In this document: positions 7,031-43,279 of the stretch, piece after piece | Layout of the letters: every line of letters begins with the position of its first letter | Numbering within the stretch: position 1 is the stretch's first letter | Assembly (NCBI GenBank): GCA_013178225.1 | Contig: JABLXE010000001.1 | Span: forward strand, 124,001 to 188,000 | DNA: 64,000 nucleotides | From: Methanotrichaceae archaeon | Lineage (GTDB): Archaea > Halobacteriota > Methanosarcinia > Methanotrichales > Methanotrichaceae | Direction: 5' to 3' | The notes under the pieces: model-generated | Told to the model about the DNA's origin: nothing | The model's database searches: none | The model's input: only the letters and a program-made list of their open reading frames with translations | Made by a program: the position numbers and the translations under genes

Positions 7031-7984
7031 CTAGTCCTCCAGCCTCAAGCCCTGGCAGCCGGTCCTGACCAAAAAGGCCCGGCCTTTGGCCTGCTCTAAG
7101 GCTACAGCCATCGGCGTCCTGCCCTCGGGACCCGGAAGTGCTATCATGCACCCCCCTCCACCGGCACCGGTGATCTTGGCTCCCAGCGCCCGGCCCGGCC
7201 CCCTGGCCGCATACACCAGCTCGGACAGCTCTCTGCTGCCAACGCCTATGGCCTCCAGCAAGCCGTGGTTCACGTTCATCAGCTCTCCCAGAGCCGCAAG
7301 ATCTTGTTCGCGGATCAGCTGAACGGCCCGGGATGATGCGGCCCCGATGGACTGAAAGATGGGGCCGACGATCTCAGGATAAAGAGCGTAAAGCCGCTGG
7401 ACCTTCTGCACCTCGGACCTGGTATCATGTGGTTTCTCGGTGTATCCGATCACCAGCTCCAGTGCCGGCAGGTCAATTGGCCGGGCCGTCTTCGATACCG
7501 TGCAATAGCCGCCGAAGGTGGAGAGCGCAGTATCCATAGGGCTTCCGAGGCCCATTTGCACCGTCTTCTCGATCCGGTGGGCGCAATCGGCGATCTCCTG
7601 CAAGGAGAGGCTCAGGCCCAGGTGTTCGTTTAGGGCTCCGATGGTGGCAACAACCGTTGCCGCGGACGATCCCAGACCGGATGCAAGCGGTATCTCCGAG
7701 CGGACCTCCACCCTGAGATCCTGGGCCTGGAACTCCTCCAGGGCCGCGCGCACGTATCTGGTGGCGAATGCTGCCCGGTCCGAACGGACCCTTCCGGAAT
7801 GAACGTCCAGAGAAAATCCTTGAAGCGTGAGGTTGCCGGCCACGATCTCCAGGCCACCGGCAGAATCGTTCACCAACACCTTCGTGCGCAGGTCAACGGC
7901 CGCGCCGAGGGCGGAAAATCCGGATACAACGGCGTGCTCTCCGAAGAGGATGACCTTGCCGGGAGCTGATGCCGCGGTCAGAAT
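7031..7984 (-). CDS. mvk: Mevalonate kinase, apparently starting at ATT
   Basis: A GHMP kinase that phosphorylates mevalonate. The ATP-binding motif LASGLGSSAATV lies near residue 97, the C-terminal GHMP motif GAKITGAGGGGCMIAL near 270, and the conserved N-terminus reads SAPGKVILFGEHAVV. That N-terminus lies upstream of the first GTG (7879), so a start at 7879 would remove a conserved strand and the substrate site. Between it and the in-frame stop of the preceding gene there is no ATG, GTG or TTG, only ATT (complement 7982-7984) followed by CTG. AAGGGGG lies 6 bases before the ATT. I place the start at ATT (317 residues); CTG at 7981 is the alternative. The gene follows MEMO by 12 bases and precedes ipk. 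Confidence 0.85.
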   Translation of the reverse strand: MLTAASAPGKVILFGEHAVVSGFSALGAAVDLRTKVLVNDSAGGLEIVAGNLTLQGFSLDVHSGRVRSDRAAFATRYVRAALEEFQAQDLRVEVRSEIPLASGLGSSAATVVATIGALNEHLGLSLSLQEIADCAHRIEKTVQMGLGSPMDTALSTFGGYCTVSKTARPIDLPALELVIGYTEKPHDTRSEVQKVQRLYALYPEIVGPIFQSIGAASSRAVQLIREQDLAALGELMNVNHGLLEAIGVGSRELSELVYAARGPGRALGAKITGAGGGGCMIALPGPEGRTPMAVALEQAKGRAFLVRTGCQGLRLED

Positions 7985-41510: not shown

Positions 41511-42326
41511 CTATGTCAGCTTGCTTTTCACCTTCTGATAAAATCCGTCCCGGCCGACCTTCACGAACCTGGCCGGAGTATCCGCCCGGCCCATCGCCAG
41601 CAAATCATTCTGCGAGATGGTGGCCATGTTCTGGCCGTCGATCACCACCAATGCGTCTTTGTCCGGCAGCTTGAGCTTTATCTCAATAGTGCTCTTTCCG
41701 GGCAACACCCAGGGCCGGGAGGAGAGCTTGAAGGGAGCCATGGGCACCAGAACCAGGGCATCGACTCGCGGATCGACTATGGGCCCGCCAGCCGACATGG
41801 CATAGGCAGTGGAGCCTGTGGCGGTGGCGACGATCACCCCATCGGCGCGAAAGTCCTCCATCAGCGATCCGTCTACCAGGATCTCGAACTCGATCATCTT
41901 GGCCGGGCTGGCGGCGATCAGCGCCACCTCGTTGGTGGCCGGAGGAAGGCTGCGCCGGTTTAAAAGCACCTTCAACCGGGGCCGCTCGTCCACTTCGAAC
42001 CCGGAGAGCAGGCTTTCAATCCTGTCGGCAGCATCCTCCGGCTCGAGATCTACCAGAAAGCCCAGCGTCCCCATATTTACCCCCAGTATGGGAAGCGGAT
42101 CGGCCATCTTGTGGATGGTTCGAAGAATCGTGCCGTCGCCCCCCACAGATACGATGAAATCGACCTTGAGGTCGGCCATCTCCAGGACCGACGTTGCCCG
42201 GCCTCCCAGCTTGTGAGCCAGATCCGGCTCCAGGAATATCTCGGCCAGTGGGGACAGCCGCTTTAGCAAGAACTTCACCAGCTGCACCGACTCGTCCTCG
42301 GGCCGGGAGACGAAGCCGATCCTAAT
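41511..42326 (-). CDS. nadK: NAD kinase, apparently starting at ATT
   Basis: Phosphorylates NAD to NADP. It shows VSVGGDGTILRTIH near residue 58 (GGDG motif), VNMGTLGFLVDLEPED near 86, and ADGVIVATATGSTAYAMSAG near 158. The canonical N-terminal strand IRIGFVSRPEDESVQLV lies upstream of the first GTG (42287). It has no ATG, GTG or TTG; it begins at ATT (complement 42324-42326) with GGAGG 8 bases upstream. The ATT shares one base with the stop of the preceding phosphatase gene, a coupled arrangement. Full length from ATT is 271 residues; from 42287 it is 258 and lacks the first strand. Confidence 0.88.
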   Translation of the reverse strand: MRIGFVSRPEDESVQLVKFLLKRLSPLAEIFLEPDLAHKLGGRATSVLEMADLKVDFIVSVGGDGTILRTIHKMADPLPILGVNMGTLGFLVDLEPEDAADRIESLLSGFEVDERPRLKVLLNRRSLPPATNEVALIAASPAKMIEFEILVDGSLMEDFRADGVIVATATGSTAYAMSAGGPIVDPRVDALVLVPMAPFKLSSRPWVLPGKSTIEIKLKLPDKDALVVIDGQNMATISQNDLLAMGRADTPARFVKVGRDGFYQKVKSKLT

Positions 42327-43140
42327 GGCTGATTCCTCCGATAAGCTCGAGCAGCTCCTGATGAAGCTGCCGGTTAGATCCTATCAGGTCCGTTCTCTGC
42401 CACATGTTCCCGTCCAGGTGAAGCTCCTTTCCGGCGGCATCGGTGATTAAGCCTCCCGCCTCCTCTAAGATGAGCTTTCCTGCCGCTACATCGACTACCC
42501 GGAGCATTCCTCGCAGGTCAACAAAGGCATCCAGGCGACCTTCGGCCACCAGAGACATCTCCAGTGAGGTGCTGCCTAGAGTCCTGATCCGCCTCACCCG
42601 GTCCCCAACGGCGACTATTCTGGCGGTATGGGGCCGGACGGTGTAAGCGGAGATGCTGTAGTCCCGGAAATCCGAGGTCTTGGAGACGGAAAGCCTTCCG
42701 CCGGGCTCTTTAAAGGCACCTCTTCCCTTTTCGGCATAATACTTGGCTCCGCTGGCCAGGTCGCAGATATAGGCCAGGCTGAAGCCATCCCGGCTCAGGT
42801 AAATGGAGACCGAATAGAAGGGGATGGCATGAACGGCATTGAAGGTCCCGTCCAGAGGGTCCAGATTTATGAAGTACTGAGGATCGTCTCCGACCAGGAT
42901 ATCTCCGACCTCCTCGCTCAGCACCCGAAAGCCGGTTCCGGAGCGCTCCAGTTCCGAGATGATAGCGTTTTCTGCCGCCTTGTCTATGCTCTTGGTGGGA
43001 GTTCCGTCCGCCCCCATCTCCAGCATGAGCCCGCTTTCCGGAGAACCGACCATTCCGGCAATGGCCAGCGATGCCGCAGCTGCCGCCCGATCGCACAGGC
43101 TCATGAGACGCCGCCCCTCTTCTGATAGTCGCTCGCTCAT
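42322..43140 (-). CDS. suhB: Bifunctional inositol monophosphatase / fructose-1,6-bisphosphatase
   Basis: A 272-residue Mg-dependent, lithium-sensitive phosphatase. Motifs are LSEEVGDILVGDD near residue 75, INLDPLDGTFNAVHAIPFY (the D-P-x-D-G-T/S metal site) and the late VVDVAAGKLILEEAGGLITD. Archaeal members dephosphorylate both inositol-1-phosphate and fructose bisphosphate. TTTATATC at about 43163-43171 on this strand lies 25 bases before ATG 43140, which supports a leaderless start there rather than at longer in-frame ATGs. The NAD kinase start overlaps its stop. Confidence 0.9.
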   Translation of the reverse strand: MSERLSEEGRRLMSLCDRAAAAASLAIAGMVGSPESGLMLEMGADGTPTKSIDKAAENAIISELERSGTGFRVLSEEVGDILVGDDPQYFINLDPLDGTFNAVHAIPFYSVSIYLSRDGFSLAYICDLASGAKYYAEKGRGAFKEPGGRLSVSKTSDFRDYSISAYTVRPHTARIVAVGDRVRRIRTLGSTSLEMSLVAEGRLDAFVDLRGMLRVVDVAAGKLILEEAGGLITDAAGKELHLDGNMWQRTDLIGSNRQLHQELLELIGGISH

Positions 43141-43279
43141 CCTCTGAAATTGAGAGGGCATGATATAAAAGCCCCTCCAGGGGACCTTCATGGAAAATCC
43201 GGGAGGAAATCCCTCGGAGGGAGAGCTTTTATATGCTACCTTGGATCATGCTATCACGTTACATGAAGGAGGGACGCTG

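Follow-up and report, generated by a model that had tools for sequence, protein, structure and literature searches.

Translation initiation at codons other than ATG, GTG and TTG is already known as such, the AUU of infC and the GTC of sigR being described examples. In Escherichia coli, infC starts at AUU (cited in PMC5472188). The annotated GTG of Streptomyces sigR lies inside the AGGAGGTG binding site, and the proven real start is a GTC or GTT that follows it (PMC5472188). Coupling of translation at overlapping stop and start codons is documented in archaea and bacteria (PMC6728339). On the protein level, the fused NADP phosphatase/NAD kinase PRK14076 unites a phosphatase and an NAD kinase in one polypeptide.

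Here we describe the NAD kinase gene of a methane-making archaeon of the Methanotrichaceae, located in a window of 64,000 nucleotides (the whole stretch of DNA that was analysed). Judged from sequence comparison, this gene most likely begins at AUU. It shares with infC the AUU start of an essential gene; the infC AUU, however, serves IF3 autoregulation, a link which the NAD kinase does not have. The likeness to sigR consists in a canonical GTG inside an extensive AGGAGGTG and a non-canonical codon after it, and in sigR GTC and GTT are interchanged between species. In contrast to the NAD kinase, whose ATT is archaeal, overlaps a stop and is known from sequence, sigR is bacterial, subject to IF3-controlled fidelity and experimentally proven. 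As in the termination-reinitiation pairs, start and stop share bases and the Shine-Dalgarno sequence (SD) lies in the upstream gene. The described overlaps are ATGA and TGATG (PMC6728339), whereas here ATTAG or ATTAA is found, with the start before the stop and a single shared base, an arrangement barred to NTG codons. Finally, the two protein families of PRK14076 are adjacent and in the same order, although they are encoded here by two genes in different frames and not fused.

The probable start site of the NAD kinase gene

Read from ATT, the NAD kinase matches PRK03708 from residue 2 (E 6e-79, model positions 2-270), and both of its domains score above the gathering threshold (PF01513, 60.1 bits vs 25.5; PF20143, 130 bits vs 23.7). 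Solved NAD kinase structures match the sequence from residue 15 at best and leave the first strand uninformed. The phosphatase encoded upstream also matches the phosphatase half of PRK14076, and the two genes together correspond to the two halves of this fused protein.

On the reverse strand, the 5' end of the gene reads CGGAGGAATCAGCC ATT AGG ATC GGC TTC GTC TCC CGG CCC, and the tail of the phosphatase gene carries GGAGGAATCAGCCATTAGG. The two genes overlap by the 5 nt ATTAG. ATG, GTG and TTG are absent from the NAD kinase frame between the upstream TAG and codon 14, a stretch which includes 18 open codons upstream of ATT, and the conserved N-terminus is thus preceded by no in-frame canonical codon. 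The spacer between SD and ATT is normal, the SD spacing of this genome peaking at 7-9 nt. Its hybridisation energy of -9.5 kcal/mol is stronger than that of 87% of the clear ATG starts of the genome; 2.6% of internal sites are at least as strong. The initial annotation had named this ATT, overlapping the upstream stop, as the start of the gene, and it remains the best start: no canonical codon is available upstream, GGAGG stands 8 bases upstream and ATT prevails among the relatives.

A standard gene finder would choose the GTG at 42287, which is canonical, has a weak GAGG in front of it and would give a protein 13 residues shorter. It had been called the only GTG; it is the first canonical codon in frame, not the sole GTG. 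We consider this start very improbable. Across 46 genomes the amino acids at positions 2-8 are retained while their codons vary synonymously, and residue 2 is where the matches to NAD kinase models set in.

Table 1. Location of the genes and sequence elements discussed. Plain coordinates are positions in the window; those with a contig label refer to the window's genome (G000).
Feature	Position	Strand	Basis or remark
NAD kinase, 271 aa read from ATT	41511..42326	(-)	PRK03708 (NCBIfam), PF01513, PF20143
Inositol monophosphatase / fructose-1,6-bisphosphatase family gene, upstream of NAD kinase	42322..43191	(-)	PRK12676, 289 bits, cut-off 264
ATT, proposed NAD kinase start codon	42324..42326	(-)	no canonical codon upstream; family comparison
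Shine-Dalgarno GGAGG within the phosphatase gene end, 8 nt before ATT	42335..42339	(-)	same register in relatives
TAG, phosphatase stop; T shared with the end of ATT	42322..42324	(-)	register kept in relatives
In-frame TAG bounding the NAD kinase frame on its 5' side	42381..42383	(-)	19 codons before ATT
GTG, codon 14, first canonical start in the NAD kinase frame	42285..42287	(-)	start here drops conserved I-R-I-G-F-V-S-R
Mevalonate kinase, candidate ATT (7984), then CTG (7981)	7031..7984	(-)	both after AAGGGGG
Ferredoxin-like gene, candidate ATT start	C22:258681-259115	(+)	AGGAGG, 8 nt, ATT CGG GTT TAT GTG GAC
cobS, candidate CTG overlapping the upstream stop as CTGA	C1:74775-75536	(+)	relatives' frames
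cbiG, AGGAGGT, 8 nt, candidate ATA	C28:64460-65338	(-)	no canonical start before residue 40

Codon 1 in the Methanotrichaceae

The window's genome (2.98 Mb, 28 contigs) is the sole member of its genus in the set. Its named relatives are Methanothrix/Methanosaeta, which places it in the Methanotrichaceae. For the comparison, the order-level set adds no genome to the 50 of the family set, and 46 family genomes have the end of the gene from which codons were counted. Codon 1 is ATT in 35 of them, GTT in five, TTT in five and TTG in one. The rank of the SD energy together with the retention of ATT in the majority of the genomes makes the site more than a chance occurrence. Protein-level conservation, as read from the aligned sequences, begins at codon 1: codons -1 and -2 vary freely and encode many amino acids, while codons 4-6 encode Gly-Phe-Val throughout and differ at the third position. 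About 37 of the 46 genomes carry an in-frame stop five or six codons before codon 1 (codon -5 or -6), which confines the start to codons -4 onward and makes a longer protein impossible there. The register of the phosphatase stop is unchanged in nearly all genomes in which the script placed it; for some loci of genera g8 and g5 the automatic call put the stop far upstream, yet the sequence reads the same ATTAA. The NAD kinase of one relative (G009, L068) contains an in-frame TAA.

An error of assembly or sequencing at the start has next to no probability and is regarded as refuted for the NAD kinase, given that 35 genomes, as independent assemblies, show ATT with the same overlap. One-base indels nevertheless seem to be present elsewhere in the assembly. 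The start of a TPR gene (C10:15748-16623, minus strand) apparently lies in another frame (ATGACCGATAAC...), which suggests a one-base indel in the gene or in the assembly.

Several features of the comparison bear on whether codon 1 is a start or an ordinary isoleucine. ATT is the only spelling of isoleucine possible at codon 1 given the overlapping stop, codon 3 shows a similar pattern of isoleucine conservation, and the GTT and TTT codons, limited to two genera (g7 and g11), are odd as starts. ATG is found at codon 3 in all five TTT loci (L029, L061, L063, L067, L069) and in none of the five GTT loci. In 37 of the 46 genomes an in-frame GTG lies three codons upstream, and in these relatives the ATT could be plain isoleucine. 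The ancestral start might accordingly have been this GTG, with the ATT an internal isoleucine codon; the window's genome would then have lost the GTG and would use ATT or another makeshift. The outgroup families of the class fit such a history in that their NAD kinases start at codons -3 to -1 with ATG, GTG or TTG, at about the same distance, and in three of 20 the stop of the phosphatase gene falls into an identical register.

We nevertheless hold this history to be unlikely. The GTG falls inside the SD itself (GGAGGTG, GGGGGTG), and its own SD energy (median -3.0 kcal/mol) equals the internal background of the genome, compared with a median of -10.1 kcal/mol for codon 1, which has the stronger SD in 37/37 genomes. 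Moreover, the GTG has been lost in several lineages with no replacement at that site: the window's genome and two relatives (G024, G027) have neither this GTG nor any canonical start there, and in another (G032) a TTG at codon -5 is the only upstream canonical codon. An association in the family genomes between loss of the T in GGTG and a purine in GGRGG was not significant (p 0.17) and was dropped. A relative with TTG at codon 1 (G047) has no GTG and no other upstream start, and its canonical start is therefore exactly at the ATT position; among the 46 genomes it is the only one with a canonical start there. Accepting the GTG would still leave the window's genome dependent on ATT.

Candidate non-canonical starts elsewhere in the genome

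The initial annotation had extended AUU initiation to a repeated use in the lineage and had proposed that ATT should be in excess after ribosome-binding sites genome-wide. A scan of 2.43 of the 2.98 Mb, directed at genes in which the coding signal sets in before any canonical codon, did not bear out this expectation: among in-frame sites at SD spacing that precede the earliest canonical start, ATT was not enriched (14/280, 5.0%, vs 537/11388, 4.7%; p 0.45), at low power. Genome-wide tests have little force here, since true starts of this kind amount to a handful among about 2,280 gene calls and the edges of coding regions are poorly defined. When SDs were tallied by codon, ACG was nominally high (12/98, p 0.002) and not significant after correction for 61 codons. 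A constrained start model gave a scattered list of codons with no near-cognate excess, and a free EM estimate of the start codons drifted away towards codons merely marking the end of coding bias; both were too weak to use. CTGA accounted for 42 of the 230 gene pairs in the four-base overlap register, hardly above what non-start pairs lead one to expect.

A ferredoxin-like gene appears to support ATT as a start independently. In 20 relatives, collected by family pattern searches, its codon 1 is ATG 19 times and TTG once, clearly a canonical start at the same position, and ATT (ATH) occurs there in the window's genome only. In the closest genus (g2) the start reads ATG CGG GTC TAC GTA GAT. The gene lies about 57 nt after its upstream neighbour, so that coupling is not needed there. 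This ATT might reflect a one-base sequencing error.

Other codons are candidates in further genes. For hemC, 30 family loci (L212-L241) were compared, the window's genome contributing the locus at C24:128378. In 30/30 loci a spacer of exactly 7 nt separates GGAGG from codon 1, and hemC nucleotide 17 is the first base of the hemL stop. About ten loci from four genera, the window's genome included, have no ATG, GTG or TTG before codon 15; four loci have no canonical codon in the first 30, and in several a stop codon immediately precedes codon 1. Some have GTG at codon 8. Throughout the family the conserved start site itself is free of ATG, GTG and TTG. It reads GTC or GTT followed by AAA in eight loci from seven genera, GUC AAA being the form of most genera, and nnC CTG in all loci of genus g8. 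The hemC start is therefore non-canonical; GUC is plausible for the GTC/GTT loci and CUG for g8. The cobS gene probably uses CUG; in two relatives its open frame is no longer than the match from the CTG residue. The cbiG gene probably uses AUA. For mevalonate kinase, which had been counted as an ATT case, the ATT is suitably spaced from the SD, but the adjoining CTG is equally so, and the assignment is ambiguous.

Additional observations were made on three genes of the window's genome. In C2:7217-8539 (minus strand) and C24:163940-164785 (plus strand) the coding signal reaches as far as a CTGA overlap and a canonical start is absent; the former gene has AGGAGG 7 nt before the CTG. In a metallophosphoesterase gene (C22:296537-297496, minus strand) the conserved N-terminus ISDTHFG precedes the first canonical start, and ATA after GGGGG is the candidate.

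What can be defended is that non-canonical starts of several kinds, ATT among them, are used by a small number of genes. Of the repeated use of AUU there remains the ferredoxin-like gene, while a habit specific to AUU is not supported, the other cases being CUG, AUA and GUC. With these the assertion holds that the lineage has further genes whose true start escapes a gene finder restricted to three codons. To our knowledge, archaea lack IF3. Tentatively, and with more reservation than for the NAD kinase itself, nadK, hemC, cobS, cbiG and the ferredoxin-like gene may be cited for a relaxed start stringency as a clade-level trait of the IF3-less Methanotrichaceae. Conserved GUC, CUG, AUA and AUU starts would be tolerated where a strong SD or a terminating ribosome positions initiation, possibly setting a low expression relative to the upstream partner.

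Proposed coupling to the phosphatase gene and implications

We think it quite probable that the NAD kinase is translated from AUU by coupled reinitiation and near-cognate initiation at a strong SD, yielding a Met-Arg-Ile-Gly N-terminus. Stop and start overlap and the SD lies within the phosphatase gene, as in coupled pairs. The SD in the last codons of the phosphatase gene would set ribosomes on codon 1 of the NAD kinase, and ribosomes fresh from termination at the overlapping UAG or UAA would provide a local supply. The ordinary initiator tRNA(CAU) would then initiate at the near-cognate AUU, so that the protein begins with methionine; among the tRNAs of the scanned part of the genome, only this ordinary CAU initiator and no unusual initiator was seen. 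We infer the coupling of phosphatase and kinase, methionine as the first residue and any effect on the ratio of kinase to phosphatase. By analogy with sigR-rsrA, the arrangement may plausibly serve to keep the output of kinase below that of phosphatase.

The kinase frame is +1 relative to that of the phosphatase and both halves match the fused family, so a +1 frameshift at the phosphatase stop could in principle produce a phosphatase-NAD kinase fusion as in PRK14076. This is very improbable. All NAT codons are seen as the last sense codon before the stop, with no fixed slippery site, and an SD is instead kept at initiation spacing. No canonical start can form the observed overlap: the stop begins with U, a start sharing this one base must be NNU, and every NTG is thereby excluded.

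No report of non-canonical starts in Methanothrix was found in the open-licence literature. New, as far as this literature goes, are the family-wide conservation of such starts in archaeal metabolic genes and the geometry of the stop/start overlap. Ordinary gene finders would misplace the starts of the NAD kinase and of a few other genes. If this reading is true, standard annotation overlooks the start codons of essential metabolic genes in a major methanogen group, and the N-termini of these genes in the databases would therefore be wrong. The stop/start overlap would represent a geometry unattainable with canonical starts, and archaea, lacking IF3, would offer a set of conserved non-canonical starts for testing how start codons are selected.
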